NCBI GenBank assembly: GCA_003142255.1
Contig: PLLO01000016.1
Location: 62,001-126,000 of the forward strand
Source of the DNA: Bacteroidales bacterium
Lineage (GTDB): Bacteria; Bacteroidota; Bacteroidia; Bacteroidales; VadinHA17
DNA: 64,000 nucleotides
Direction: 5' to 3'
In this document: piece by piece, positions 1,676 to 15,879 of the stretch
How the letters are laid out: every line of letters begins with the position of its first letter
How positions within the stretch are numbered: position 1 is the stretch's first letter
The notes under the pieces: generated by a model
What the model was told of the DNA's origin: nothing
What the model saw: only the letters and a program-made list of their open reading frames with translations
The model's database searches: none
Program-made: the position numbers and the translations under genes

Positions 1676-2929
1676 TTATTTTATATCAAATAGCCTGCAG
1701 ATATGCCGTTTGAAGATATTGTCGTAAACACATTCCGAGACTATCTTTTCGTTTGCCTCAAGCAATTTATAGTATTCAGCCATTTCCATTGCTGCAAGCT
1801 TATAAGCCACATGTATCAGCTGTCTCATATTCGGATTATAATCCTTATTGCCGGGGACATGCCTGAGAGCACCGGCCATTTTATTGCTGCTCCATTTTGC
1901 AACTTCAGTTTTAGATGGAAGACCTGAGATATTTATATCAATAACGTCAGCATAAGGTGCGCACAATTCTTCAGTTTTCTCAAGAGATTTATAATATATT
2001 TCCTTTACAAAATCGAGTGCTTTCCCTCCTGATTCTGCAAGCCCTATTACCTCCTCAAGCCACGTTGTTCCGGCAGTTTTAAGATGAATTCCCTTGTCGT
2101 GTTTTTTGATTATTGATCCTATCAGAGGGTAAATCGAGAATTTATCAGAGCCTGAGTGAACACTCATCTTAAGATTGTCCGGAAGGCCAAATTCTTTTAT
2201 TGCAAAATCAATAACCATCAGGTCGGATTCAAATTCCTCTGCAAATTTTTGTGGATCGCCTACATAATCGACACCCTTATTGAATCTCCCGGAAAACTTT
2301 GGAGCAATTGTCTGGACTGGTATGTTTTCTTCGCCCAGCATTTTCAGGATAAAGAAGAGTTCCACCGGCGTCTGTGGATTGGGAACTTCATCCATTGACA
2401 CTTCTGTGACAAAATTTTCTTTGCCTTTGCTTTTTTCAATTTTTCTGTAGATCTCCCATGCTTTTATTGCGGCAAAAAGATATTTCTCAGCTATTGAGGT
2501 TATGAGTTGTTCGGTAACCTTCAGTGGTTTCTTTATGCCAGGGATCTTCAGGTCTCCTGTATATTTCCTTGCCCCGGAAACAAAGTTTTTTATTTCTTTA
2601 TCGTCGGCTTTTTTGCCAATATAGGAAGCAACGTCAATGGTGAAGAAATCAGAGGCGTTTATAAATCTGTCAACCGTATCAAGGTTGATGTGGTCAGCAT
2701 CCACGAAATAAGGCTTTTTGAATTTTGCCGAATTTGTAACATGATCAGCTTCTTGCCTGACATCATCAGGCTGAGTGCCGATGATCACATGTTCACGGTT
2801 CGATTTGTTCCAGACAGGAGTAATCTCTACTCCTTTACTGCCGGCTTCAATAATTGCTTTCAGCTGGGCGCCTCCCTGATGACCGAACCTGTCGCCCAGC
2901 CCCATTGAATATTTTCCTAGTTTTTTCAT
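1676..2929 (-). CDS. uxaE: Tagaturonate epimerase (UxaE family)
   Basis: This 417-residue protein matches the UxaE family, which interconverts D-tagaturonate and D-fructuronate by C3 epimerization. This lets galacturonate enter the glucuronate branch without UxaA/UxaB. Visible hallmarks are the N-terminal KYSMGLGDRFGHQGGAQL, an FVDADHINLDTVDRF segment, VEITPVWNKSNREH, and the conserved HSGSDKFSIYPLIG block near residue 259. These are consistent with a metal-dependent TIM-barrel enzyme acting in the cytoplasm. It is the last gene of the leftward uronate cluster, 34 bp downstream of the LacI regulator. With UxaC and UxuB in the same cluster, it completes galacturonate to mannonate conversion. 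I see no truncation; the ATG start is followed by an ordinary N-terminus. Confidence 0.88.
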   Translation of the reverse strand: MKKLGKYSMGLGDRFGHQGGAQLKAIIEAGSKGVEITPVWNKSNREHVIIGTQPDDVRQEADHVTNSAKFKKPYFVDADHINLDTVDRFINASDFFTIDVASYIGKKADDKEIKNFVSGARKYTGDLKIPGIKKPLKVTEQLITSIAEKYLFAAIKAWEIYRKIEKSKGKENFVTEVSMDEVPNPQTPVELFFILKMLGEENIPVQTIAPKFSGRFNKGVDYVGDPQKFAEEFESDLMVIDFAIKEFGLPDNLKMSVHSGSDKFSIYPLIGSIIKKHDKGIHLKTAGTTWLEEVIGLAESGGKALDFVKEIYYKSLEKTEELCAPYADVIDINISGLPSKTEVAKWSSNKMAGALRHVPGNKDYNPNMRQLIHVAYKLAAMEMAEYYKLLEANEKIVSECVYDNIFKRHICRLFDIK

Positions 2930-2963: not shown

Positions 2964-4019
2964 TTACAAAAAGAAATCTACATTTTCTGAAGTCACAACA
3001 TCAATTGGAAGGTACTCCATTTTCTCAGGCATCTTGTTTGATGAGAGAAAATCGAAAAGTTTTTTAACTCCTTTGTATGTCTGCTCTTCAGGTCTTTGTC
3101 CGATCAGGAAACTGATTGTTCCGGATTTCAGATGAGCTACATTCCGTTCAAGGAGATCATAACCGATCAGGTTTACTGACCTGATATCATGAGCTTTAAT
3201 ATAATCTGCAACTTTGTATGATTTTGATCCTGAAACGAATATCGAACCTATGTTATGATGATTTTCAAATATCTTATCAAGTTCCCTTTTTATATTGTCA
3301 CTGGCAGGATTTGAAATGTTCAGGCTAAATTTTTCCCCGAATTTGTTGCTATTATTGGAGAAAAAGCTTAAAAACCCTTTTGACCTGTTGTTGAGATGAT
3401 GAACATTTTGAAGGTTCCTTGCCAGGTTGATTAGAAGCAGATCTTTACCCCCGGGAGTTATCATTTCTGTTAACTGCCCTGCAACCTTCCCGCTTTGAAA
3501 GACATTCTCCCCGATATAGGCAAGGAAATCTGTATCCTGTACATATCCATCCACAAAAACAAATGGGATGTTTTCTTTCCGAAGCAACGAACAGAAAGCG
3601 ATGGATTCAGTTTGGAATATTGGCGCAAGAAGCACACCATCGGGTTGAAGCTTCAAAACAGTTTTGGTTTCCTTTACAAAATCTGCTTCGCTTAAAAGGT
3701 CGAAGTTGATCTGGGTCAGATTTACTGGAAAAGGATCGAGCTCAGCCATAGCCCTTAACATGCCAATCGGATGCTTGACCCAGAATGTATTTTCTTCAGT
3801 AGAGCGGGGAAGAAGAGAAACAAGATTATATGGCTTCTTTGATTTCAATACCTGGGCCATAAGGTTGGGAGTATAGTTCAATTCTCTGGCTATTTGAAGT
3901 ACTTTATCACGTGTTTTTTCTGCAACCTCTCCGCGGTCATGCAATACGCGGTCCACTGTACCGATTGAAACACCTGACAGTTCTGCAATATCCTTTAGCC
4001 TTGCTTTCTTGACCGTCAT
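2964..4019 (-). CDS. LacI-family transcriptional regulator of uronate genes
   Basis: The first ~60 residues form a LacI helix-turn-helix and hinge (ARLKDIAELSGVSIGTVDRVLHD... NYTPNLMAQVLKS). The rest is a periplasmic-binding-protein-like sugar-sensing domain (LLPRSTEENTFWVK, GVLLAPIF, PFVFVDGYVQD, IGYDLLERN). It sits between the hexuronate transporter and uxaE, so it probably senses a uronate or keto-uronate intermediate and represses the cluster. The SIGTVDRVLHDRGEVAEKT version of the recognition helix is common in Bacteroidota LacI proteins. A candidate operator is the palindrome at 11793-11814 between uxaC and the divergent kdu operon. The link between regulator and site is inference from position only. 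Length (351 aa) is normal and the start is unambiguous. Confidence 0.85.
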   Translation of the reverse strand: MTVKKARLKDIAELSGVSIGTVDRVLHDRGEVAEKTRDKVLQIARELNYTPNLMAQVLKSKKPYNLVSLLPRSTEENTFWVKHPIGMLRAMAELDPFPVNLTQINFDLLSEADFVKETKTVLKLQPDGVLLAPIFQTESIAFCSLLRKENIPFVFVDGYVQDTDFLAYIGENVFQSGKVAGQLTEMITPGGKDLLLINLARNLQNVHHLNNRSKGFLSFFSNNSNKFGEKFSLNISNPASDNIKRELDKIFENHHNIGSIFVSGSKSYKVADYIKAHDIRSVNLIGYDLLERNVAHLKSGTISFLIGQRPEEQTYKGVKKLFDFLSSNKMPEKMEYLPIDVVTSENVDFFL

Positions 4020-4127: not shown

Positions 4128-5492
4128 CTACAGATCTGTAATAGGTTTATGTTTTGGCACCAGTGTCTTGATAATTATCCAGGCTGTCAGGTAACAAATG
4201 GCACATATGCAAAACATAATCAGGTATGCAGTTTTTGGAGTACTTGCATAAAAGTCTGTAAGTCTGCCGGCAAGCTGCTGAATGATTACACCTCCTATAC
4301 CGCCTGCCATTGTACCGATTCCTGTAATTGAACCCACTGCTTTCTTAGGGAACATGTCCGAAACCGTGGTAAACAGGTTTGCCGACCATGCCTGATGAGC
4401 AGCTGCGCCAATACTTATAACAGCAACAGCGAGCCACATTGCACTGCTTCCAAATCTTTGGGTGCTGCCGAAATACTGGGTAGTCAAAACAGTCAGTGGG
4501 AAAATGGCAATTAAAAGCATGGCCCTCATCCTGGCTTTGTATACAGGAAGTCCTTTGTTGATCAGGAAGAGTGGAATGCTTCCTCCGAAGACACTACCGA
4601 TGATAGCCACTCCGTAAACAACAAATGTAGGCCATCTGACCTCCAAAGTAGTCATTCCGAATTGCTTCATGAGGTAATCCGGTAACCAGAACAGGTAAAA
4701 CCACCATACTCCGTCAGTCATGAATTTACCCCAGAAAAACGACCACGTCTGACGGTATTTAAACAGCTTCAGCCATGGAACACTTGCTTTTTCTTCCTGA
4801 GTATTTACCTGTGCAGCAACCTCCATTTCTTTATCATCCTGCTGAATATATTCAAGCTCAGACTTTGACAAGCGCTTTTGCTTTTCCGGAGAATTATAGA
4901 ATAGGAACCAAAAGATCAACCACAGGAAACCGGATGAACCTGTAATTATAAATGATAGTTTCCAGCCTGCTCCGATGCCAAAATAAACAAGACACCATGG
5001 GACAAACAGGGCTGCAATCATCGCACCCAGATTTGAACCACTGTTAAAGATGCCTGTTGCAAGCGCTCGCTCTTTCTTTGGGAACCATTCAGCCACGGTT
5101 TTAATGGAAGCGGGGAAGTTTCCTGCCTCACCAACCGCAAAAAGGCTGCGTATAAAAGCATGCATACCTACCGCGGCACCCACAAAGGCATTTAAAATAC
5201 CAAATACAGACCAGGTAACCAATGAAATTGCCAGACCCAGCTTTGTCCCTATCTTATCAAGAAACCATCCGGCAAAGATGGAAATAAAGGCATAAAAGGC
5301 CGTGAAAAATGAAGTAAGATAGGAAAAGTCTGTGTTGGACCATCCGAAACCACCCTGATCAATAGCAGTGCAAAAGAATGGTTTCAGATAGCTGATAACT
5401 TGCCTGTCCATATAGTTTATGGTAGTGGAAAAAAGCAGAAGTGTTATTATCACCCATCTGTAATTCCCGATCTTGGTTTGATTGTTCTCCAT
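4128..5492 (-). CDS. exuT: MFS hexuronate transporter (ExuT-like, anion:cation symporter family)
   Basis: A 454-residue major facilitator protein with about 12 hydrophobic segments. The N-terminus has the anion:cation symporter signature (NYMDRQVISYLKP). The second conserved block is RSLFAVGEAGNFPASIKTV followed by EWFPKKERALATGIFNSG, diagnostic of the ExuT/GudP/NanT branch that takes up galacturonate, glucuronate and related acids by proton symport in the inner membrane. A charged cytoplasmic loop (SPEKQKRLSKSELEYIQQDDKEME) separates the two six-helix halves as usual. It lies in the leftward cluster between gnd and lacI, with 33 bp to gnd. Which uronate it carries is inferred from the neighbouring UxaC/UxaE/UxuB genes. 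Confidence 0.85.
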   Translation of the reverse strand: MENNQTKIGNYRWVIITLLLFSTTINYMDRQVISYLKPFFCTAIDQGGFGWSNTDFSYLTSFFTAFYAFISIFAGWFLDKIGTKLGLAISLVTWSVFGILNAFVGAAVGMHAFIRSLFAVGEAGNFPASIKTVAEWFPKKERALATGIFNSGSNLGAMIAALFVPWCLVYFGIGAGWKLSFIITGSSGFLWLIFWFLFYNSPEKQKRLSKSELEYIQQDDKEMEVAAQVNTQEEKASVPWLKLFKYRQTWSFFWGKFMTDGVWWFYLFWLPDYLMKQFGMTTLEVRWPTFVVYGVAIIGSVFGGSIPLFLINKGLPVYKARMRAMLLIAIFPLTVLTTQYFGSTQRFGSSAMWLAVAVISIGAAAHQAWSANLFTTVSDMFPKKAVGSITGIGTMAGGIGGVIIQQLAGRLTDFYASTPKTAYLIMFCICAICYLTAWIIIKTLVPKHKPITDL

Positions 5493-5525: not shown

Positions 5526-6980
5526 TTATACAGTGTAAGTTGTTGATGCTGTTGTTCCGCCCCTTCCTGTCCAGTTGGTATGGAAGAACTCGCCTCTCGT
5601 CTTATCTGTCCTTTCATAAGTGTGTGCTCCGAAATAGTCGCGCTGAGCCTGGAGCAGGTTTGCAGGAAGCCTTTCGCAGCGATATCCGTCAAAATAGGCT
5701 AAAGCTGACGAAATTGAAGGCATTGGAATCCCCTGGGAAACTGCTGTCGATACTATATTCCTCCATCCTTTCTGTGCTTTCTCAACTTTATCATTGAAGA
5801 ATGGGTCAAGCAGCAGGTTACTGATCGATGGATTGTTTTCAAATGCTTCCTTGATTTTTCCCAGGAATGCAGACCTGATTATACAGCCTCCTCTCCACAT
5901 AAGTGCAATTCCTCCATAGTTGAGCTTCCATCCGAACTCCTTTGCGGCAGCTTCCATAAGCGAATAGCCCTGGGCATACGATACGATCTTCGATGCATAA
6001 AGGGCATCCTTGAGGTCGTTAATAAATTTGACCTTATCTCCCTTAAATTCAGCTATCGGACCGTGAAGTATCTTAGATGCTTTTACTCTTTCTTCCTTTA
6101 CTGCCGAGAGGCATCTTGCGAAGACAGCTTCGCCGATAAGCGTAAGAGGAATACCTGAGTCGAGTGCGGCTACAGCCGTCCATTTGCCAGTTCCCTTCTG
6201 TCCTGCCGTATCGAGGATCTTATCAACAAGCGGATTTCCGTCAGTATCCTTGTATGCAAGAATATCCCTTGTTATCTCAATAAGATAGCTGTCAAGTTCT
6301 CCCTTATTCCATTCCTTGAATACATCATGCATTTCATCGGCGCTCATGTGAAGGAGATCCCTCATTACCTGGTAAGCTTCGCATATAAGCTGCATGTCAC
6401 CATATTCTATTCCGTTATGGACCATTTTAACAAAGTGGCCGGCACCATTTTCACCTACCCAGTCGCAGCAGGGAGTACCGTCCTCTACTTTTGCAGCAAT
6501 TGCCTGGAATATAGGCTTAACCTCAGGCCATGCGGCTTTTGATCCACCAGGCATTAATGAAGGACCAAGAAGTGCTCCCTCTTCACCGCCGGAGACGCCT
6601 GTGCCAATGTAAAGGAATCCCTTGCTCTCAACCATTGCTGTTCTCCTGTTAGTATCGGGGAAGTGCGTGTTGCCCCCGTCAATGATGATATCCCCTTTTT
6701 CAAGATGGGGGAGCAGTAAGTTGATAGTATCATCAACTGCGCTTCCTGCCTTGACCATCATCATGATCTTCCTGGGTCGCTTAAGAGATTTTACCAGTTC
6801 TTCAATTGAATGAGCCCCCCTTATATTCTTTCCTTTAGCTCTTCCGGCAAGGAAATTATCAACTTTTTGAACTGTCCGGTTGAAAACAGTTACCTGGAAA
6901 CCCTTGCTCTCCATATTGAGAACAAGATTCTCCCCCATAACTGCCAACCCTATTAATCCGATGTCTGATAGTTTATTCAT
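5526..6980 (-). CDS. gnd: 6-phosphogluconate dehydrogenase, decarboxylating
   Basis: Oxidatively decarboxylates 6-phosphogluconate to ribulose 5-phosphate with reduction of NADP (or NAD). All family landmarks are present: the N-terminal Rossmann motif (GLAVMGENLVLNMESKGF), the substrate loop GVSGGEEGALLGPSLMPGG, the catalytic region HFVKMVHNGIEYGDMQLICE with the conserved Lys, the GQKGTGKWT motif, and the C-terminal tail HTNWTGRGGTTASTTY. At 484 aa it is full length and of the long (bacterial/eukaryotic) type. Its position inside a uronate cluster, with no glucose 6-phosphate dehydrogenase nearby, is unusual. Its substrate here could come from gluconate made by the LarA-like enzyme upstream (see findings). 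Flanking genes on both sides share its strand. Confidence 0.95.
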   Translation of the reverse strand: MNKLSDIGLIGLAVMGENLVLNMESKGFQVTVFNRTVQKVDNFLAGRAKGKNIRGAHSIEELVKSLKRPRKIMMMVKAGSAVDDTINLLLPHLEKGDIIIDGGNTHFPDTNRRTAMVESKGFLYIGTGVSGGEEGALLGPSLMPGGSKAAWPEVKPIFQAIAAKVEDGTPCCDWVGENGAGHFVKMVHNGIEYGDMQLICEAYQVMRDLLHMSADEMHDVFKEWNKGELDSYLIEITRDILAYKDTDGNPLVDKILDTAGQKGTGKWTAVAALDSGIPLTLIGEAVFARCLSAVKEERVKASKILHGPIAEFKGDKVKFINDLKDALYASKIVSYAQGYSLMEAAAKEFGWKLNYGGIALMWRGGCIIRSAFLGKIKEAFENNPSISNLLLDPFFNDKVEKAQKGWRNIVSTAVSQGIPMPSISSALAYFDGYRCERLPANLLQAQRDYFGAHTYERTDKTRGEFFHTNWTGRGGTTASTTYTV

Positions 6981-7040
6981 AAATAGTAAGATATTTGATA
7001 TACGTTTTATTTTTCCTTCAATCTTTTGACCCCCTTTCTT

Positions 7041-7106
7041 TTTCCCCCAAGGGGGAAATGACTTTTAAATCACTCCTTCCCTCCTGGGGGAAGGCCGGGA
7101 TGGGGG
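7041..7106. repeat. REP-like palindromic repeat between gnd and the Gfo/Idh gene
   Basis: A perfect hairpin (TTTCCCCC at 7041-7048, GGGGGAAA at 7051-7058) is followed by a second, imperfect one (CCTTCCC...GGGGAAGG, about 7075-7094) and the tail GCCGGGATGGGGG. The 14-mer GGGGAAGGCCGGGA (7087-7100) recurs exactly at 10313-10326, showing these belong to one repeat family. Confidence 0.7.
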
Positions 7107-7122
7107 TTATAATAATTTATAA

Positions 7123-8103
7123 TTATTTTTTATAATAATCTTTTACTACTTCATCCATCACCCAGCTTGTTCTTGCAGCCGTATTGCCTGTGCTTACAGC
7201 ATTACCCTTCCCCTTAATAGCTTTTACTACCTGGTCGATAAGGTAAATCTGCACATTCTCCGGCCTTTTATTAACAAATTCCTGTCGTCCATTGCTGGTT
7301 TCGAGTATGATAGGTTCAAAATTGAAGCAGGAGAACCTGATATATCCGGTTTCACCGATAATCTCAATTACATCCCTGCCAGCTTCTATTGCTGATGCGA
7401 AGCTCCAGGTGCCGCAGCAGCATATGTTATCGGCAAAAAGGAATTGTGCAGAAACGAAATCTTCAGCCTTGTAAAAGCCTCCCTGGTTAAGAACCAGGGA
7501 TTTGATGGTCTTCACGGGGCCGAAAAGAAAATCAAGATAATCGAGCTGATGTGAGGCAAGATCAAAAAAATGACCACCTCCCGAGATCAACGGATCGACG
7601 CGCCATGATAGTTTTCCTTCAAGCTCATCTTCGGAGGGTGATTTAAAAAGCTGGATCTGAGCAAATCTTATCTTTCCGATAGTTCCTTTTTCAATTATCT
7701 CCTTTACCTTCAGGAAACCAGGGAGCGCTCTTCTGTAATATGCAACGAATACAGGAACCCTCTGTTTCTCACCGGCCCTGATAATCTTCTGACACTCAGC
7801 GAAATTAAGAGCCATGGGCTTTTCTATGTATACCGGTTTGCCTGCCTTTATCGATTTAATGGCAAACTCAGCATGATTCCCTGGAGGGGTGGCTATATAC
7901 ACAGCATTTATCTCAGGGTCGTTTATCAGGAGTGATGCATCAGAATAGAACCGTGGTACTTTATGTCTTGCGGCATAATCTTCAGCAAGTGCGCGGTCGC
8001 GCCTCATGACTGCAAGAAGCCTTGAATCGTTCACTTTGTTAAAAGCAGGGCCGCTTTTTACCTCAGTGACATTGCCGCATCCTATTATACCCCAGTTTAT
8101 CAT
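7123..8103 (-). CDS. Gfo/Idh/MocA-family oxidoreductase
   Basis: A 326-residue NAD(P)-dependent dehydrogenase-like protein with the N-terminal Rossmann motif (WGIIGCGNVTEVKSGPAF) and the family EKP motif (PVYIEKPMALNF, near residue 95), followed by the alpha/beta substrate domain with SGGGHFFDLASHQLD. It overlaps the LarA-like gene by 4 bp (ATGA), so the two are almost certainly co-translated. It is in the leftward uronate cluster. Substrates in this superfamily are diverse (sugars, inositols, uronate lactones). A role in oxidizing or reducing a uronate-derived aldonate or ketoacid is inferred from context, but the exact reaction cannot be read from the sequence. Confidence 0.82.
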   Translation of the reverse strand: MINWGIIGCGNVTEVKSGPAFNKVNDSRLLAVMRRDRALAEDYAARHKVPRFYSDASLLINDPEINAVYIATPPGNHAEFAIKSIKAGKPVYIEKPMALNFAECQKIIRAGEKQRVPVFVAYYRRALPGFLKVKEIIEKGTIGKIRFAQIQLFKSPSEDELEGKLSWRVDPLISGGGHFFDLASHQLDYLDFLFGPVKTIKSLVLNQGGFYKAEDFVSAQFLFADNICCCGTWSFASAIEAGRDVIEIIGETGYIRFSCFNFEPIILETSNGRQEFVNKRPENVQIYLIDQVVKAIKGKGNAVSTGNTAARTSWVMDEVVKDYYKK

Positions 8104-9374
8104 TTTTTAAGACGCTCTTTTGTGCTCCAGAGCCCTAATGCAGGATTTGAGATGAAATAAAATTCTTCGCCGTCGGGCAGCTTGTTGAAGCCGTCCTTAA
8201 GTTTTTCGGGGTTATATTTCTTCAGCATTTCATTCAGATCAGCATATTTGAAATTAACCGATTCGATTTCTTCACGGGTGAGATGCCCCGGGCAGTATGT
8301 CACTGAAAACCTGCCCTCGGAGCTTCCATGTATGAGATGGGCAGCAGCTCCAAGGTTATTCCGGAGATCTTCGTTTTCCTTAAGTGAAGCAAGAGTGGCA
8401 GGAGTCCCGCGATAACCATATTTTCTTATCAGCTTGTCAATCTCCTTGTCTTCGCCGAACTCTTTCAGTCCGGGAGCGAGAACAATCAATTCACCGTTGT
8501 CTGCCATTGCCATTCGGGTCCTGTAAATGCTCTTGTTTCCAAGCCATGTACTCTTGAACTCGGAAGGATCAAGATATACTACAACTTTTTTAAGGGGTTT
8601 GTCAAACTGGGTAAAGTTGACTTTTACTGAAAGCTCGGCAGCGAGTCGGAATACCTCTACATCATCGCCTATAAAGAGTCCCCGGATTATAAGCTTGTCA
8701 GTTTCATCACGGCCGATTACAGTCTGAACATACACAACCGGAAGGTGTGAAATAAAATGATCACTGGCATAATTCAGAAGGCTTCTTACCGGGTTGTCGG
8801 CTTTGCCAAGCAGATTCTCCAATCCATAAACTGCACCGACAAAATGGCTTTTGTTTATCCCCTCAGAGCCTCCGCATCCGACAAAAAGGTTTTTATTGTA
8901 GTTTGCCATCCCTATGACTTCATGCGGTACAACCTGTCCTACAGAGATTATAAGATCATGTCCTCCGTTTACAATAAGTTTGTTAAGTTGGGCAGGCCAC
9001 GGATAGTCTAAAGCCCCGTTGGTCAGCTTGGAAACATACTCTCCGGGAACTGTTCCAACCGTAACGACATCCTTTCTCCAGTCATGAACCCTGAAAAGTT
9101 CTTTGGGAACTTCTTTGAACATCTTTTCTATTTCCTGGTCTGTCATGGGAGTGTGTGTCCCGAGAGCAGGAAGTATGTCTTTCAGGCTTCCTTTGTAATA
9201 TTTATAGAGCAGGGTTGTTATCTCTCCTGCACGTGAATGGAACCTCGTACAATCAGGAGGTACCACAAGCACTTTTTTCCTTGACCCGATTTTAACAAGA
9301 GCAGAATAAAGCCCGTACTCCAGGTCATTCGAGTTGATTACTGAATTTTCTGATCCAGACTTATAATATATCAT
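8100..9374 (-). CDS. LarA-like nickel-pincer-dependent hydroxyacid isomerase (possible aldonate epimerase)
   Basis: Belongs to the lactate racemase (LarA/DUF2088) superfamily, which moves a hydride at the alpha-hydroxy carbon using a nickel-pincer nucleotide. Visible residues correspond to LarA: D41 and R44 (DCTR, LarA D72/R75), H74 in ALGTH (H108), H151 (H174), K161 (pincer-linked K184) and H177 (H200). The H-to-K spacing of 10 and K-to-H spacing of 16 equal those of LarA. A Tyr at about 284 may match Tyr294, while the Lys298 position looks like Met or Arg. No larB, larC or larE cofactor genes are in the window. It lies between uxuB and a Gfo/Idh gene, overlapping the latter by 4 bp. One characterized member group epimerizes gluconate and mannonate at C2 (GntE), which would fit here exactly; this is inference. 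Other hydroxyacid substrates remain possible. Confidence 0.75.
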   Translation of the reverse strand: MIYYKSGSENSVINSNDLEYGLYSALVKIGSRKKVLVVPPDCTRFHSRAGEITTLLYKYYKGSLKDILPALGTHTPMTDQEIEKMFKEVPKELFRVHDWRKDVVTVGTVPGEYVSKLTNGALDYPWPAQLNKLIVNGGHDLIISVGQVVPHEVIGMANYNKNLFVGCGGSEGINKSHFVGAVYGLENLLGKADNPVRSLLNYASDHFISHLPVVYVQTVIGRDETDKLIIRGLFIGDDVEVFRLAAELSVKVNFTQFDKPLKKVVVYLDPSEFKSTWLGNKSIYRTRMAMADNGELIVLAPGLKEFGEDKEIDKLIRKYGYRGTPATLASLKENEDLRNNLGAAAHLIHGSSEGRFSVTYCPGHLTREEIESVNFKYADLNEMLKKYNPEKLKDGFNKLPDGEEFYFISNPALGLWSTKERLKK

Positions 9375-9429
9375 AATTATACAATTAAAATTCTAGTTAC
9401 ATTAAAAGAAGGCGTCAGGCGCCGATACT

Positions 9430-10266
9430 TTATACTCCCGAATAGGCGCTGAAGCCGCCGTCGACCGGGATTATAATACCTGTAACTGCTTTCGAGAGGT
9501 CCGATACCAGGTAAAGAAGCGTGCCGGTAAGTTCCTCGGGAACACAGTAGCGTTCCATAGGCGTACTATTGATAATTTTCTTTCCGCGGGCAGTCATCTC
9601 TCCTGTTTTTTCATCAGTAAGCAGGAACCTGTTCTGGTTTGTTAGCAAAAACCCCGGGGCTATTGCATTTACCCTTACACCGGTTTTTGAAAAATGAACG
9701 GCAAGCCATTGTGTGAAATTATTAACAGCTGCTTTTGCGGCTGAATACGCAGCGATCCTGGTTAGAGGCCGGTATGAATTCATCGATGATATGTTTATAA
9801 TTACGCCGGATTTTTTACTGACCATTTCGGCTCCGAAAACCATCGAAGGAAGAAGTGTACCCTTGAAGTTGAGATCGAAAACCTTGTCAAAGCCTTCAAT
9901 CTGAAGACCGAAGAAGGTATCTTCAGGTTTCTCGTTGCCTTCAATCTTATCAACCTTTGTAGTAGCAGCGGGTGAGTTGCCGCCTGCTCCGTTTACAAGA
10001 ATATTGATAGTGCCGAATTTATTAATTATCTCTTTTTTTGCTGCTTCGATCGAAGCTTTGTCAAGAACATTTGCTGATAAGCCGATGCTTGGAGTTTTAA
10101 ACTCTTTTTCAATCTGGTCTGCAACCTTTATGGCTGCTTCTTTATTAAGGTCGAGGATAACAGTCTTTACTCCCTGTGCAGCAAGCGATCTTGCCATCTC
10201 TGAGCAGATAATGCCTGCACCGCCGGTAATGACGGCGACTTTGTTTTTAAGATTCAATTCGTTCAT
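9430..10266 (-). CDS. uxuB: D-mannonate oxidoreductase (fructuronate reductase), SDR type
   Basis: A short-chain dehydrogenase of the Bacillus UxuB type, which reduces D-fructuronate to D-mannonate with NAD(P)H. It shows the glycine-rich cofactor loop (TGGAGIICSEMARSLA), NGAGGNSP, the catalytic Ser/Tyr/Lys (ISSMNSY; YSAAKAAVNNF) and the insert TGEMTARGKKI that marks this SDR subgroup rather than FabG-like enzymes. The frame opens at 10299, but the ATG at 10266 (MNELNLKNKVAVITGG) places the Rossmann strand at the usual distance and is preferred. It follows uxaC by 74 bp and precedes the LarA-like gene, so it supplies mannonate to whatever comes next. No mannonate dehydratase is visible nearby. 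Confidence 0.85.
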   Translation of the reverse strand: MNELNLKNKVAVITGGAGIICSEMARSLAAQGVKTVILDLNKEAAIKVADQIEKEFKTPSIGLSANVLDKASIEAAKKEIINKFGTINILVNGAGGNSPAATTKVDKIEGNEKPEDTFFGLQIEGFDKVFDLNFKGTLLPSMVFGAEMVSKKSGVIINISSMNSYRPLTRIAAYSAAKAAVNNFTQWLAVHFSKTGVRVNAIAPGFLLTNQNRFLLTDEKTGEMTARGKKIINSTPMERYCVPEELTGTLLYLVSDLSKAVTGIIIPVDGGFSAYSGV

Positions 10267-10300
10267 AGTATGTATATTTTTTAGTTGATTTTGTTTCACT

Positions 10301-10330
10301 CCCTTTCCCTATGGGGAAGGCCGGGAAAAT
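10301..10330. repeat. REP-like palindrome between uxaC and uxuB
   Basis: CCCTTTCCCTATGGGGAAGG followed by CCGGGA; arms TTTCCC/GGGGAA pair. The 14-mer GGGGAAGGCCGGGA at 10313-10326 is identical to 7087-7100. It lies immediately downstream of uxaC and may fold in the transcript and separate expression of uxaC from uxuB. Confidence 0.6.
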
Positions 10331-10339
10331 GGTCAATAT

Positions 10340-11743
10340 CTATTTTCCAAATCCAAAATGTTCCTTAGCATTTTTATATGAAATGCCCTCAATAAGCGGT
10401 TTAAGAAGTTCTTCCTCATCAGGGATGATTCCTTTTTCAACCTCTTCGCCAACATAATTGCAGACAATACGTCTGAAGTACTCATGGCGCGGGTAGGAGA
10501 GGAAGCTTCTTGAATCAGTCACCATTCCGATGAACCTCCTCATCAGTCCAAGTGAAGCCAGATCTCTGATATGTTTCTCCATCCCGTTCTTCTGATCCAG
10601 GAACCACCATGCTGCTCCGTACTGGACCTTGACGGGAGATGTGCCATCGTTGAAATTGCCTGCCATTGTAATCATCATTTCATTATCCGCAGGATTCAAA
10701 TTGTACAGGATCGTCTTAGCAAGCTGATCGTTTTCATCAAGGCTGCTCAGGAATCTCGACATTTTGAGTGCATCCTGAGGTATACCTATTGAATCCCATC
10801 CTGTATCAGGCCCCATTTTTCTGAACATTCTTGCATTATTGTTTCTCATGGCCCCTACATGGAATTGCTGGACCCACCCTCTCTTGTGGTTCATCTTGCA
10901 GAGTTCGGTCATAATAGCACTCCTGTAAACCTCTGACTCTTCACATGAGAGAGACTTGCCTTTAAGAAGCTTTTTAAAATATATATCAGCATCAGATGCA
11001 TTGAACGGTGCAAAATAGAACCTGTCCATGCCATGGTCTGAAGCCCTTCCCCCCGTTTCGTGGAAAAACTTATGTCGTTCATCGAGGGCTTCAACCAGGT
11101 CGCTGAAACTCTTAATCTCACGTCCGCATGAATTACCCAGCTTCTCAATATATGCCTTGAATTTTGTGACATCTTCAACCTTAATAACGTTATCAGGTCT
11201 CCATGTTGGGAATATGAGAGTCGACATTGCTCCCTTCAGATTTTTATGTTGCTCAAGTGTGTCGGCAGGGTCGTCGGTCGTACAAACCACTTCAACCTTC
11301 ATCTTCTTCATAATTCCCCTTGTACTGAATTCCTTTGTCTGAAGAATTGCATTTGCTTTTTCATAGATCGCTGAAGCAGTGGCAGGAGATAGCAGATCGA
11401 AAATATTGAAATACCTGGCAAGCTCAAGATGGGTCCAGTGATACAAAGGATTGCCTACCGTTGCAGGGACTGTCTCTGCCCATTTCATGAATTTTTCAAA
11501 ATCCGGTTCGTTACCTGTGCAATACTTCTCATCAATACCATTTGTCCGCATTGCACGCCATTTATAATGATCGCCTTCAAGCCAGGCCTGGGTAATGTTT
11601 GTAAACTGGCGGTCGTCGGCTATCATAGATGGTGAAAGATGGCAATGAAAATCAATGATTGGTTGGTTTTTTGCGTATTGATGATAGAGCCTTACGGCTG
11701 TTTTGTTGCTGAGAAGAAAATCCTCATGAATAAATGGTTTCAT
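10340..11743 (-). CDS. uxaC: Glucuronate/galacturonate isomerase
   Basis: Uronate isomerase converts D-glucuronate to D-fructuronate and D-galacturonate to D-tagaturonate in the cytoplasm. The 467-aa protein is full length and shows the amidohydrolase-like metal motif DFHCHLSP (about residues 31-38), a YHWTHLELARYF block, KRGWVQQFHVGAMRNNN, and the C-terminal TDSRSFLSYPRHEYFRRI typical of the family. It is the first gene of the leftward cluster; upstream lies a 225-bp region shared with the divergent GH105-kdu operon and containing a palindromic candidate operator. Product of the reaction feeds UxaE and UxuB encoded downstream. Confidence 0.96.
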   Translation of the reverse strand: MKPFIHEDFLLSNKTAVRLYHQYAKNQPIIDFHCHLSPSMIADDRQFTNITQAWLEGDHYKWRAMRTNGIDEKYCTGNEPDFEKFMKWAETVPATVGNPLYHWTHLELARYFNIFDLLSPATASAIYEKANAILQTKEFSTRGIMKKMKVEVVCTTDDPADTLEQHKNLKGAMSTLIFPTWRPDNVIKVEDVTKFKAYIEKLGNSCGREIKSFSDLVEALDERHKFFHETGGRASDHGMDRFYFAPFNASDADIYFKKLLKGKSLSCEESEVYRSAIMTELCKMNHKRGWVQQFHVGAMRNNNARMFRKMGPDTGWDSIGIPQDALKMSRFLSSLDENDQLAKTILYNLNPADNEMMITMAGNFNDGTSPVKVQYGAAWWFLDQKNGMEKHIRDLASLGLMRRFIGMVTDSRSFLSYPRHEYFRRIVCNYVGEEVEKGIIPDEEELLKPLIEGISYKNAKEHFGFGK

Positions 11744-11792: not shown

Positions 11793-11814
11793 TTTTCGTT
11801 AACGATCACGAAAA
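11793..11814. promoter_or_regulatory. Palindromic candidate operator between divergent uronate operons
   Basis: TTTTCGT (11793-11799) and ACGAAAA (11808-11814) form an inverted repeat around TAACGATC, and TCGTTAACGA (11796-11805) is itself a perfect palindrome. It is 50 bp from the uxaC start and about 155 bp from the GH105 start. A LacI-family protein is encoded in the cluster, so it is a natural candidate ligand. No second copy was found in the window. Confidence 0.45.
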
Positions 11815-11968: not shown

Positions 11969-13150
11969 ATGAAATATTCAAAATCCATTTTAACTTTTGC
12001 TCTGCTGTTAATAATAAGAAGTGGTTTTTCACAAAATCAGATGACTGAACCTGTACCCGCACAGGTTATTCCTGCATTTAAACCGGAGCTCAATGCCAAT
12101 GATGTCAGAACCGTTCTTAAAGCTGTAGCTGACTGGCAGATTAATACACCCCTTAAGCATGAACTTGGCGACTGGACCAATGGCGCCCTTTATGCAGGCA
12201 TGGTTGAATATGCCGGTATTGCCGGAAATGAAAGTTACTACAAGTGGCTCAAAGGGATTGCAGATAAACTTAACTGGACTTATTTTATTCATGATAATCC
12301 TCTTCGCAGGTATCATGCTGATGACTACTGCGTGGGACAGGCATATATAGATCTTTACAGGAAGTACAACGATAAGAATATGATCAAACCGATCAGAGCT
12401 TATCTCGACCAGATGATGAAAGACCCTGCAAAAGGAGACCTTAAATTCGTAAATACAAAAGATTACTGGGCAACACAGAGATGGTCATGGTGCGATGCTT
12501 TATTTATGGGTCCGACAGTATGGGCTAAAATGGGTAACGTGACTCACAAGAAAAAGTATCTTGATTTTATGTACAGCGAATACAAAGCTACAACCGATTA
12601 TCTGTTCGATAAGGACGAATCTCTCTATTTCAGGGATTCCGGTTATTTTACACGCAAGGAAGCAAACGGGGCAAAAGTTTTCTGGGGGAGAGGCAACGGA
12701 TGGGTATTTGCAGGACTGCCGATAATTATCAGGGAGCTTCCCGCAAAATATGAGCATCGGGATTATTTTATTAAAATTTATAAGGATATGGCTGCAAAGC
12801 TATTGGCTCTTCAGCAGCCTGATGGATCATGGCATGCGAGCCTTCTCGATCCGGCGAGTTATCCAAATCCGGAAATGAGCGCAACTGCATTTTTTGTTTT
12901 TGGATTTGCGTGGGGAATCGATAACGGGTATCTTGATAAGGACAAATACCTGCCTGCTGTGATCAGCGGGTGGGAAGCAATGGTAAGCGCCGTATGGCCC
13001 GATGGCAAGGTTGGCTTTATCCAGCCCGTTGGATCAGATCCCAAAACAGTTACCAGGGAGATGACTGAAGTATACGGAGTCGGAGGATTCCTTCTTGCCG
13101 GCACAGAAATATGCAAGATGATCGAAAAAGGAAATATAATTAATAAGTAA
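11969..13150 (+). CDS. GH105/GH88-family unsaturated uronyl hydrolase
   Basis: A second (alpha/alpha)6-barrel unsaturated uronyl hydrolase, 393 aa, with a signal peptide (MKYSKSILTFALLLIIRSGFSQ) for export to the periplasm. Signature positions include WSWCDALFMGP with the probable catalytic Asp at residue 176, FWGRGNGWVFAGLP, and the late MTEVYGVGGFLLAG block. It hydrolyses 4,5-unsaturated uronic acids from the ends of pectin oligosaccharides. It begins the rightward operon GH105-kduI-kduD-kdgK, with 6 bp to kduI, so its product is used directly by the next enzymes. It is only distantly related to the GH105 protein at 387, suggesting different linkage specificity (for example rhamnogalacturonan versus homogalacturonan or ulvan-like substrates). 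Confidence 0.85.
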   Translation: MKYSKSILTFALLLIIRSGFSQNQMTEPVPAQVIPAFKPELNANDVRTVLKAVADWQINTPLKHELGDWTNGALYAGMVEYAGIAGNESYYKWLKGIADKLNWTYFIHDNPLRRYHADDYCVGQAYIDLYRKYNDKNMIKPIRAYLDQMMKDPAKGDLKFVNTKDYWATQRWSWCDALFMGPTVWAKMGNVTHKKKYLDFMYSEYKATTDYLFDKDESLYFRDSGYFTRKEANGAKVFWGRGNGWVFAGLPIIIRELPAKYEHRDYFIKIYKDMAAKLLALQQPDGSWHASLLDPASYPNPEMSATAFFVFGFAWGIDNGYLDKDKYLPAVISGWEAMVSAVWPDGKVGFIQPVGSDPKTVTREMTEVYGVGGFLLAGTEICKMIEKGNIINK

Positions 13151-13156
13151 CGAAAT

Positions 13157-13993
13157 ATGATAACACAACTACGCTATTCATCACATCCGGAGGATGTAAA
13201 ACATTATGACACTGAGAAACTAAGAAAAGAATTTTTTATTGAGAAAGTTTTTATTCCTGATGAGATCACACTGGTATATTCAATGTTCGACAGGATTATG
13301 GCCGGTGGAGCAATGCCTGTCAAAAAAGCCCTGAAACTTGAGTCTGTTGATCTGGTTAGAGCATCATTTTTTCTCGAAAGAAGGGAAATGGGAATGATAA
13401 ATATCGGAGGTGAAGCCATCGTGGAAGCAGGTGGTGTCGTTTATAAAATTGGTCATAAGGAGGCACTATACCTTGGAAAAGGAACTAAGGATGTGGTCTT
13501 TAAATCGGCAAACCCCGACAATCCGGCAAAGCTTTACATCAACACATGTCCTGCACATCATGAATACCCATCAAGGAAAATTACTCTGAAAGATGCCGAA
13601 GTGGTCGTAATGGGAAGCCCTGAAGAATCGAATCACAGAACAATAAACAAGCTTATACATACGAGCGTATTACCGACATGTCAGCTTCAGATGGGCATGA
13701 CAGAATTAAAACCGGGAAGCGTATGGAATACCATGCCTGTTCATACTCACATCAGAAGAATGGAAGTCTACTTCTATTTTGAAGTTCCGGAGAAACAGGC
13801 TGTCTGCCATTTTATGGGAGACCCTGACGAGACGCGCCATATCTGGATGAAAAACGAGCAGGCAGTAATTTCTCCATCATGGAGCATTCACAGCGCTGCA
13901 GGCACATCAAATTATACATTTATCTGGGGCATGTGCGGAGAAAATATGGATTATGGAGATGTTGATACACGTTACCCTGACACTTTAAAATAA
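13157..13993 (+). CDS. kduI: 5-dehydro-4-deoxy-D-glucuronate isomerase
   Basis: Isomerizes 5-keto-4-deoxyuronate (DKI) to 2,5-diketo-3-deoxygluconate (DKII) in the cytoplasm. The 278-residue length is exactly usual. The cupin zinc site is visible as HTHIRRMEVYFYF (around 194-206) and the conserved tail HSAAGTSNYTFIWGM. N-terminal RYSSHPEDVKHYDTEKLR is also canonical. It is 6 bp after the GH105 gene and 11 bp before kduD, a tight operon. Together they process the unsaturated uronates that GH105 and pectate lyases release. Confidence 0.97.
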   Translation: MITQLRYSSHPEDVKHYDTEKLRKEFFIEKVFIPDEITLVYSMFDRIMAGGAMPVKKALKLESVDLVRASFFLERREMGMINIGGEAIVEAGGVVYKIGHKEALYLGKGTKDVVFKSANPDNPAKLYINTCPAHHEYPSRKITLKDAEVVVMGSPEESNHRTINKLIHTSVLPTCQLQMGMTELKPGSVWNTMPVHTHIRRMEVYFYFEVPEKQAVCHFMGDPDETRHIWMKNEQAVISPSWSIHSAAGTSNYTFIWGMCGENMDYGDVDTRYPDTLK

Positions 13994-14004
13994 CAATATA
14001 CGAT

Positions 14005-14799
14005 ATGAAAGATTTATTTGACCTGACAGGAAAAGTCGCCCTTGTTACTGGCGGAACTCATGGCATTGGCCTTGCAATAGGGCTGATTCTCGGTAAGGCA
14101 GGAGCAAAGGTTTGCGTTAATGATCTGCAGGACGAAAAGCTACAGAGTTGCAAGGAAGAATATAAAAAAGAGGGACTTGATGTTTATACTCTTAAATTTA
14201 ATGTCACTGATGAGAAAGATGTTGACAAGGGTATTTCACAGATCGAAAAGAATGTAGGCACAATTGATATCCTTGTAAATAACGCTGGTATTATCAAAAG
14301 GATACCTATCCTTGATATGGCGATAGCCGATTATAAACAGGTTATCGATGTCGATCTGGTTGCTCCCCTGATAGTTTCGAAGAGAGTAGCTCCAAAAATG
14401 ATTGAACAGCGAAGCGGCAAGATCATCAACATGTGCTCAATGATGAGTGTATACGGACGCAATACCGTTTCGGCATATGCATCTGCAAAGGGAGGTCTGA
14501 AACTTCTTACTCAGAATATGACATGTGAGTGGGCTAAATACAACATCCAGATCAATGGCATTGGCCCTGGTTATATAATCACCTCCCAGACCGGACCGAT
14601 AAGGGAAAACGGACATCCTTTCAACGACCTTGTGATGACTCGTACCCCTGCTGGCAGGTGGGGCGAACCTAAAGACGTCGCCTATGCAGCATTATTCCTT
14701 GCATCTAAGGCTAGCGGTTTCGTCAATGGCCATATCCTTTATGTTGACGGCGGCATTCTTGCCAACTTCGGCTACGTAAAGGGAGAAAATGATATTTAA
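14005..14799 (+). CDS. kduD: 2-dehydro-3-deoxy-D-gluconate 5-dehydrogenase
   Basis: SDR that reduces 2,5-diketo-3-deoxygluconate to 2-keto-3-deoxygluconate (KDG). The 264-aa protein has the cofactor motif TGGTHGIGLAIG, NNAGIIKR, the catalytic MCSMMSVYGRNTVSAYASAKGG (Ser, Tyr, Lys) and the C-terminal VNGHILYVDGG. The GIIKR and DLFDLTGKVALVTGG features are those of KduD/gluconate 5-dehydrogenase rather than a general SDR. Operon position after kduI settles the choice. Its product goes to the KDG kinase encoded 42 bp downstream. Confidence 0.92.
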   Translation: MKDLFDLTGKVALVTGGTHGIGLAIGLILGKAGAKVCVNDLQDEKLQSCKEEYKKEGLDVYTLKFNVTDEKDVDKGISQIEKNVGTIDILVNNAGIIKRIPILDMAIADYKQVIDVDLVAPLIVSKRVAPKMIEQRSGKIINMCSMMSVYGRNTVSAYASAKGGLKLLTQNMTCEWAKYNIQINGIGPGYIITSQTGPIRENGHPFNDLVMTRTPAGRWGEPKDVAYAALFLASKASGFVNGHILYVDGGILANFGYVKGENDI

Positions 14800-14841
14800 T
14801 TGTCTTGTCGTGATTAATAATAACACATAATAATCTCAGTA

Positions 14842-15879
14842 ATGGCAAAAAAGGTTGTGACATTCGGGGAAATAATGCTGCGTCTGGCAACCCCGGAACA
14901 CCAGAGATTTTCACAGGCTACCTCGTACTATGCATCCTTTGGAGGAGGAGAGGCAAACGTTGCAGTTTCACTTGCAAATTATGGATTGCAGGCTGATTTT
15001 GTGACAAGGCTTCCTGAAAACGACATAGGACGTTCAGTGATTATGGAGCTGAAAAAGCACAGTGTCAGTATAGCGAACATTATTTTCGGAGGAGATAGAT
15101 TGGGGATTTATTTTCTTGAAACCGGTTCAGTATCAAGACCCAGCAAAGTTATATATGACCGCAGTAATTCCTCTGTTACTGAAATAAAACCCGGGATGAT
15201 AGACTGGAACAAGGTATTTTCAGATGCCTCATGGTTTCACTGGACAGGTATAACACCTGCCATATCGAAAGGAGCTGCAGACACCTGTCTTGAAGCTATT
15301 AAGGCTGCAAAGAAGCAGGGACTGATGGTTTCGTGTGATCTCAATTTCAGAAAAAACCTATGGAAGTGGGGAACGACTGCAAAAGAGGTGATGCCTGAAA
15401 TGGTCAGCTACTGCGATGTCATTCTGGGAAATGAGGAAGATTCAGAAAAAGTGTTCGGTATAAAGCCTGATAAAACTGATGTGTCAGCAGGCAAAGTTGA
15501 AAGCGATGAGTTCGAATCTGTCTGCCTGAAACTTAAGCAAATGTTTCCCGCCGCAAAGAAAATTATTATAACTCTCCGGGGTTCAATAAGTGCTGATCAC
15601 AATACCTGGTCAGGGATTATGTATGACGGAAAACGTTTCTTTAAGGCGCCGGTTTACCAGATTACTCATATTATTGACAGGGTTGGCGGAGGCGATTCAT
15701 TTATGGGAGGACTTATCTTTGGTTTACTGAATTACACCGGCGATGATCAGAAAGCTCTGAATTTTGCAGTTGCGGCATCATGTCTGAAACATACCATCCA
15801 TGGCGATTTCAACCTCGTATCAGTTGCAGAGGTTGAACAACTCATGAAGGGCGACAGTTCAGGAAGGGTTATCCGCTAA
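14842..15879 (+). CDS. kdgK: 2-keto-3-deoxygluconate kinase (PfkB family)
   Basis: PfkB-type sugar kinase that phosphorylates KDG to KDPG using ATP. Features: GEIMLRLATPEHQRF at the start, GGGEANVAVSLANYG (PfkB signature 1), GNEEDSEKVFG, and the ATP/catalytic motif DRVGGGDSFMGGL (PfkB signature 2, with catalytic Asp) near residue 275. Length 345 aa is normal. It ends the rightward operon. The next enzyme, KDPG aldolase, is not in the window. A side activity on gluconate cannot be judged from sequence but matters for the gluconate hypothesis. The downstream gene is convergent, with only 2 bp between stops. Confidence 0.9.
   Translation: MAKKVVTFGEIMLRLATPEHQRFSQATSYYASFGGGEANVAVSLANYGLQADFVTRLPENDIGRSVIMELKKHSVSIANIIFGGDRLGIYFLETGSVSRPSKVIYDRSNSSVTEIKPGMIDWNKVFSDASWFHWTGITPAISKGAADTCLEAIKAAKKQGLMVSCDLNFRKNLWKWGTTAKEVMPEMVSYCDVILGNEEDSEKVFGIKPDKTDVSAGKVESDEFESVCLKLKQMFPAAKKIIITLRGSISADHNTWSGIMYDGKRFFKAPVYQITHIIDRVGGGDSFMGGLIFGLLNYTGDDQKALNFAVAASCLKHTIHGDFNLVSVAEVEQLMKGDSSGRVIR

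Follow-up and report, generated by a model that had tools for sequence, protein, structure and literature searches.

A galacturonate operon of a Bacteroidales bacterium with a group 18 LarA homologue and gnd, and its possible route into the pentose phosphate pathway

The window analysed here, a stretch of 64,000 nucleotides from a Bacteroidales bacterium of the VadinHA17 lineage (assembly GCA_003142255.1, contig PLLO01000016.1, positions 62,001 to 126,000), holds an operon in which genes for the conversion of galacturonate to D-mannonate stand together with a LarA-like gene and gnd, and the question that it raises is where the mannonate goes. If the LarA homologue, a member of group 18 of its family, is a nickel-dependent epimerase acting on mannonate, then the operon would send galacturonate into the pentose phosphate pathway by way of gluconate, a gluconate kinase and Gnd, and on balance this is the answer that we favour. 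According to this scheme, UxaC, UxaE and a short-chain dehydrogenase/reductase (SDR) would convert galacturonate to D-mannonate, and the LarA protein, loaded with the nickel-pincer cofactor that LarB, LarC and LarE synthesize, would invert C2 by proton-coupled hydride transfer to give D-gluconate. A kinase would then form 6-phosphogluconate, which Gnd would decarboxylate to ribulose 5-phosphate, yielding one NADPH in return for the NAD(P)H that the SDR consumes.

The operon is real and coherent, and it probably serves the use of pectin and galacturonate. It comprises eight minus-strand genes in the order uxaC, SDR, LarA-like, Gfo/Idh, gnd, major facilitator superfamily (MFS) transporter, LacI and uxaE, and profile matches bear out the content, order, common strand and coordinates given in an earlier note on this DNA. 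The gene uxaC (10340..11743; glucuronate/galacturonate isomerase, 667 bits to PF02614 and 617 bits to PRK02925) is followed by the uxuB-type SDR gene (9430..10299; fructuronate reductase or D-mannonate oxidoreductase, 389 bits to PRK08277, cut-off 281), whose called GTG start probably lies 33 bases too far upstream, the ATG in frame at 10266 being the likelier start. The LarA homologue (8100..9374), which on the strength of NF052594, GntE2-like residues and an AlphaFold (AF2) model is a putative nickel-pincer hexonate C2-epimerase, is joined to the gene of a Gfo/Idh/MocA oxidoreductase (7123..8103; PF01408, 92 bits) by the 4-bp ATGA overlap that had been pointed out before and can be read in the sequence. 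Further along lie gnd (5526..6980; decarboxylating 6-phosphogluconate dehydrogenase, TIGR00873 792 bits, cut-off 427), the transporter gene (4128..5492; PF07690, 171 bits), a gene for a LacI-family regulator (2964..4019; PF00356, 62 bits) and uxaE (1676..2929; tagaturonate epimerase, PF16257 184 bits, cut-off 27). The transporter, presumed to take up hexuronate, had been named exuT; it is indeed an MFS protein, but the NCBIfam model closest to it is that of a D-galactonate transporter (TIGR00893, 226 bits), below the cut-off of 395.

The placement of the LarA-like protein rests on profile, PDB and fold searches. It scores 671 bits (cut-off 500) against NF052594, the model of the "nickel-dependent putative hexonate epimerase" of LarAH group 18, and 46 and 23 bits against the malate and lactate racemase models, respectively. 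Its only PDB sequence match at E <= 0.001 is 4NAR, the GntE2 protein of Thermotoga maritima, with which 103 of 339 aligned residues (30%) are identical, and 4NAR is likewise the best fold match of the AF2 model (pLDDT 85.8; template modelling (TM) score 0.80, 27% identity), chains titled lactate racemase giving TM scores of 0.63-0.71. The catalytic and cofactor residues named for the family in the part of PMC7583248 considered here are all present, viz. catalytic D41, H74, H151 and K281 and, for binding of the nickel-pincer nucleotide, R44, K161 and H177. The lysine and three histidines singled out earlier (K161, H74, H151 and H177) pair with K164, H73, H154 and H180 of GntE2 and are invariant in an alignment of 21 rows (this protein and 20 relatives). 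Groups 18-20 are described in that paper as having a loop E-V/S, a helix-11 W and a helix-14 A/V, and the protein shows two of these three features, E152-V153 and W277; in the search for the helix-14 position, its N340 aligned with N348 of GntE2. In fold, catalytic and cofactor residues, loop E and helix-11 W, it resembles LarAH20/GntE2 and LarAH19/GntE1, the D-gluconate 2-epimerases (Desguin 2020, PMC7583248) whose groups 20 and 19 contain members that convert mannonate to gluconate. However, it differs from both in belonging to a separate group, which in the account of that paper considered here is a hexonate epimerase by hypothesis only. The cofactor genes larC, larE and larB, for which a search had been proposed, were all found in the genome (98% complete), where they form one cluster (L042 4337-7074), each over its cut-off.

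The joint occurrence of the LarA-like gene, uxuB and gnd, raised earlier as a comparison to be made, is borne out in other genomes. In a sample of 117 genomes of the same family, LarA group 18 is present in 103 (96 over cut-off) and UxuA in 19 (17 over cut-off); four stretches of relatives with matches to the UxuA model (L085-L088) show no uronate genes, only a weak Gfo match. Neighbours were recorded, as any best match at E 1e-8, in the 70 of 96 genomes with a LarA locus for which longer stretches were available, and these loci carry gnd in 59 cases, uxuB in 49, uxaC in 45 and uxaE in 36. Where genomes at least 90% complete lack zwf and their larA locus was read, gnd lies in that locus in 18 of 20, and due to its retention there Gnd is probably not fed by glucose 6-phosphate in these organisms. 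Second copies of the LarA group, found on other contigs (G062:C12:253793-255031 and G072:C46:11938-13170; 588 and 580 bits to NF052594), are surrounded by stretches (L083, L084) in which no uxaC, uxuB or gnd was seen. A scan of named genomes gave at least 80 loci, from Bacteroidota, Ignavibacteria, Verrucomicrobiota, Planctomycetota, one Spirochaetaceae and one Caldithrix, of which 76 were counted, L110, L126, L159 and L168 having been dropped as they contain no open reading frame (ORF) with LarA as its best match. Many loci are truncated by contig ends; within 6 kb of LarA and on the same strand, UxuB is present in 60 of these 76 listed loci and Gnd in 53, neither of them being near LarA in the Spirochaetaceae and Caldithrix loci. 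With UxuB so often nearby, mannonate would be the substrate available to LarA. As a separate observation, loci of genus g14 (L065-L067, L091-type; e.g. L220, L224, L240) have transketolase downstream of gnd, and several of these clusters also have a match to 2-keto-3-deoxy-6-phosphogluconate aldolase.

Which protein, then, would act as the kinase? There is no kinase gene within the operon, and the gluconate kinase that the earlier note had suggested looking for did not emerge, TIGR01313 (gluconokinase) having no match in the genome and none of its six FGGY matches lying over the gluconokinase cut-off. The FGGY proteins named over cut-off are GlpK, FucK and AraB, two XylB-like proteins fall below theirs (333 and 246 bits vs 380) and one is without an NCBIfam hit. 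That this genome uses an FGGY or P-loop gluconokinase is not supported, although the last three proteins stay as less likely candidates. In relatives, the position of the kinase close to uxuB and larA is taken either by a protein of the PfkB family, about 359 residues long, whose nearest solved relative is the 2-keto-3-deoxygluconate (KDG) kinase 2afb, or by a PRK14072-type phosphofructokinase (PFK) homologue, behind which a HAD protein is encoded. Among the 76 listed named loci, 35 have PfkB, six PFK with HAD, two HAD alone, 33 none of these, and none has PfkB with either. The same exclusivity is seen genome-wide, where PfkB is present in 52 and the operon-type PFK in 41 of the 117 family genomes, with no genome having both; within the 103 LarA-bearing genomes the numbers are 49 for PfkB, 41 for PFK, none for both and 13 for neither, the remaining three PfkB genomes being without LarA. 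In these counts, which include fragments, operon-type PFK means at least 324 bits (the next group lies at about 251) and PfkB means E <= 1e-100. Fisher's test gives 1e-17, uncorrected for kinship; by parsimony the two kinase states change 8 times on a tree of 96 LarA sequences, and an independent-pairs test of the exclusivity is not significant, with 0-2 informative pairs of 6. We read this pattern as one kinase having been replaced by another with a different fold. In the present genome the likeliest kinase would be the PfkB orthologue at G000:C1:336484-337560 (L089:9482-10561), which is 84% identical to a copy standing beside uxaE in G062.

The PFK homologue, which carries a GGND motif, and the HAD protein, with a DSDG motif, lie between uxuB and larA (e.g. 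L053:7130-9302 and L058:6714-8917), and the HAD protein is present in each of the 41 genomes with the operon-type PFK. In an alignment with other PFKs from relatives and E. coli PfkA, GGND is found in both PRK14072-type groups, and these have no basic residue at the column of E. coli R162; the operon-type homologue is presumably pyrophosphate-type. The HAD model resembles HAD phosphatases no more than weakly (best E 6e-6, TM 0.50). Another recurrent neighbour is a PdxB-like gene, near LarA in 28 of the 76 listed named loci and directly before Gnd in 23 of the 76, as also in a relative at L058:12679-15279; the two such genes that were scanned lie just over the PRK00257 cut-off of 434, at 437 and 440 bits. 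The substrate of PdxB, going by the name of the model, is 4-phosphoerythronate, which according to the part of PMC6449344 considered inhibits 6-phosphogluconate dehydrogenase, and we suggest that PdxB may protect Gnd from it, perhaps together with the HAD protein. The present operon has neither PdxB nor HAD, a HAD homologue being encoded on the same contig at a distance of about 30 kb.

On the other side of uxaC, a divergent set of pectin genes (11969..15879, plus strand) comprises a GH88-family gene (293 bits), a gene which we take to be kduI, a kduD-like SDR and a KDG-kinase-like PfkB. The SDR is over the cut-off of PRK07097, "gluconate 5-dehydrogenase" (430 vs 369 bits), and below the KduD models, and the PfkB protein is below all cut-offs, its best match being the kinase part of NF041633 (506 of 700). 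Between uxaC and the GH88 gene lies the palindrome TTCGTTAACGAT (11795..11806, no strand assigned), a candidate LacI operator as judged from sequence, whose core CGTTAACG has a single copy in the window and a single copy in the 247 kb of this genome's sequence searched. Of 25 loci from relatives, 11 have the core close to the start of uxaC, ten of them upstream and L052 just inside an over-long uxaC ORF. In 9 of these 11 loci LacI follows downstream of gnd, as in the present operon, the contigs of L198 and L202 ending earlier; the 14 loci without the core show no LacI downstream of gnd, L195 being cut there by its contig end.

A number of observations weigh against the passage of mannonate through gluconate to Gnd. 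The absence of a mannonate dehydratase, from which the earlier note had argued, holds for UxuA (PF03786), which has no match in the whole genome, but a ManD-type (enolase-type) dehydratase lies on another contig (674 bits, cut-off 550), so that the notion of an organism without mannonate dehydratase is rejected and mannonate has another exit. In addition, zwf and pgl adjoin each other in the genome, in 15 kb read there without gnd, and due to their presence the gnd of the operon could also serve the ordinary oxidative pathway. A UxuA-like gene is near LarA in 8 of the 80 listed named loci (all eight hidden in the 76-locus count by its UxuA threshold of 300 bits; the two scanned are both UxuA over cut-off), which shows that LarA is no simple stand-in for the dehydratase; dehydratase and epimerase can share one branch point. 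The scheme has no role for the Gfo/Idh protein, PfkB is encoded away from the operon and next to pgi, the operator core was not found at the PfkB locus, and in the part of the LarA-family literature considered (PMC7583248) no assayed group 18 member was found. The earlier proposal of a route from mannonate over gluconate and 6-phosphogluconate to ribulose 5-phosphate is thus upheld by the GntE-like residues, the lar genes and the uxuB and gnd neighbours, and weakened by ManD, by the lack of a gluconokinase over cut-off and by the hypothetical nature of the group 18 assignment.

What LarA acts on, whether it precedes or follows the kinase and which protein that kinase is are all inferred here, and several other explanations have to be weighed. 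If ManD converted the mannonate of this organism to KDG, then larA and gnd would be a side branch or a relic; ManD is well over its cut-off and a KDG-kinase-like gene is in the window. However, ManD sits on another contig in a row of LacI, GH67 alpha-glucuronidase, SDR, ManD and XylB-like kinase genes (G000:C14:90947-97921; L045:948-7922), a composition that points to glucuronoxylan and probably to a separate branch sending glucuronate to KDG, and since larA is also intact here and its group is so widespread in the family, we regard this explanation as very improbable. It is also unlikely, though less so, that LarA acts on some other hexonate or an aldarate and that its link with gnd is only regulatory. 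For GntE1 of group 19 the KM with mannonate is 120 mM, and those who described it suspect another substrate themselves (PMC7583248, part considered), and the Gfo/Idh and PdxB-like dehydrogenases of the clusters are unexplained; the retention of gnd in zwf-less genomes and the UxuB neighbours speak against it. A stronger case, which we nevertheless consider only a lesser possibility, can be made for a kinase acting first, so that PfkB (or PFK) would phosphorylate mannonate and LarA would be a 6-phosphomannonate 2-epimerase yielding 6-phosphogluconate directly. Both activities, a mannonate kinase followed by a 6-phosphomannonate 2-epimerase, were shown in extracts of Lactobacillus suebicus as part of its isomerase-phosphoketolase route, their genes being unknown (PMC6978723, part considered). 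The absence of a gluconokinase over cut-off agrees with this, and there are two hints, no more, in the sequences: PfkB stands ahead of larA in 32 of 35 listed named loci (order uxuB-kinase-larA-gnd) and behind it in 3, and group 18 has 15 invariant basic residues (21 rows, at most two with a gap or X), four of which are non-basic in GntE2 (K175/T178, R287/Q293, H349/N355 and R355/T361). However, gene order need not mirror reaction order, the four residues were picked out in an alignment, and the LarA-family substrates in the parts of the literature cited are unphosphorylated. The fuller version, in which group 18 LarA is a nickel-pincer 6-phosphomannonate 2-epimerase, mannonate kinase arose at least twice (PfkB; PFK with HAD) and PdxB, perhaps with HAD, clears the Gnd inhibitor 4-phosphoerythronate, appears doubtful.

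A further explanation concerns the kinase only and is compatible with either order of the two enzymes: the mutually exclusive PfkB and PFK could be pentose-pathway kinases acting on fructose 6-phosphate or sedoheptulose 7-phosphate, and not hexonate kinases. The pgi gene beside PfkB, seen here and, among 11 other unlinked loci whose flanks were read, in 10 (L185-L192, L244, L245; none seen in L246), leaves room for such a role, and a transketolase match occurs in 27 of the 70 relatives' larA loci. However, the solved protein nearest to PfkB is a KDG kinase, an ordinary ATP-PFK exists in the genome (668 bits), five relatives examined carry a further PFK besides the operon type, and the hexonate kinase would then be wholly missing; this is a substantial possibility, but one to which we give somewhat less than even weight.

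The UxaR regulon of Thermotoga maritima was reportedly set out by Rodionova in 2012 as aldH-pelB-gnd-uxaRED-gntEK. The part of PMC3750489 considered here describes this gene order and proposes a galacturonate-to-pentose-phosphate route, so that the view that no such operon was known does not hold; Thermotoga GntE was assayed. T. maritima also separates this galacturonate cluster, with gntE and gnd, from a glucuronate operon kdgA-kdgK-uxuB-uxuA (PMC3750489, same part). The present system is similar in that a single galacturonate cluster unites UxaE, an SDR reductase, an epimerase of the LarA family and Gnd, while the other, glucuronate locus carries the mannonate dehydratase (UxuA at the end of the Thermotoga operon, ManD here). 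It differs in the epimerase (group 18 as opposed to group 20, GntE2), in the lack of the gntK that the Thermotoga cluster contains, in its regulator (LacI instead of GntR) and transporter (MFS instead of ABC), and in the additional Gfo/Idh gene. With the L. suebicus route it would share the conversion of mannonate to 6-phosphogluconate followed by Gnd, whereas in L. suebicus the kinase acts before the epimerase and a phosphoketolase lies downstream (PMC6978723, part considered). A Bacteroidota version of the route was not found in the considered parts of the open-licence literature (e.g. PMC5507952, PMC7953866, PMC5673643, PMC6353982, PMC8579813).

The route as such is thus already known as a proposal for Thermotoga, and what is described here is a variant with a putative epimerase of group 18 and an unusual, exchangeable kinase; new are the association of group 18 with uxuB and gnd in Bacteroidota and some other phyla, the mutual exclusion of PfkB and PFK with HAD, and the retention of gnd without zwf. 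If mannonate is indeed epimerized by this protein, then a function would be at hand for nickel-pincer group 18, so far a hexonate epimerase by hypothesis, in 103 of 117 family genomes and in several phyla, and the Thermotoga route from galacturonate to pentose phosphate would extend to Bacteroidota. There would also be candidates for the sugar-acid kinase that is missing and for two orphan activities of L. suebicus, mannonate kinase and 6-phosphomannonate epimerase. By a route of this kind the conversion of galacturonate to ribulose 5-phosphate is redox-neutral (PMC6978723, part considered), and such redox-neutral use of galacturonate would be helpful for the fermentation of pectin.

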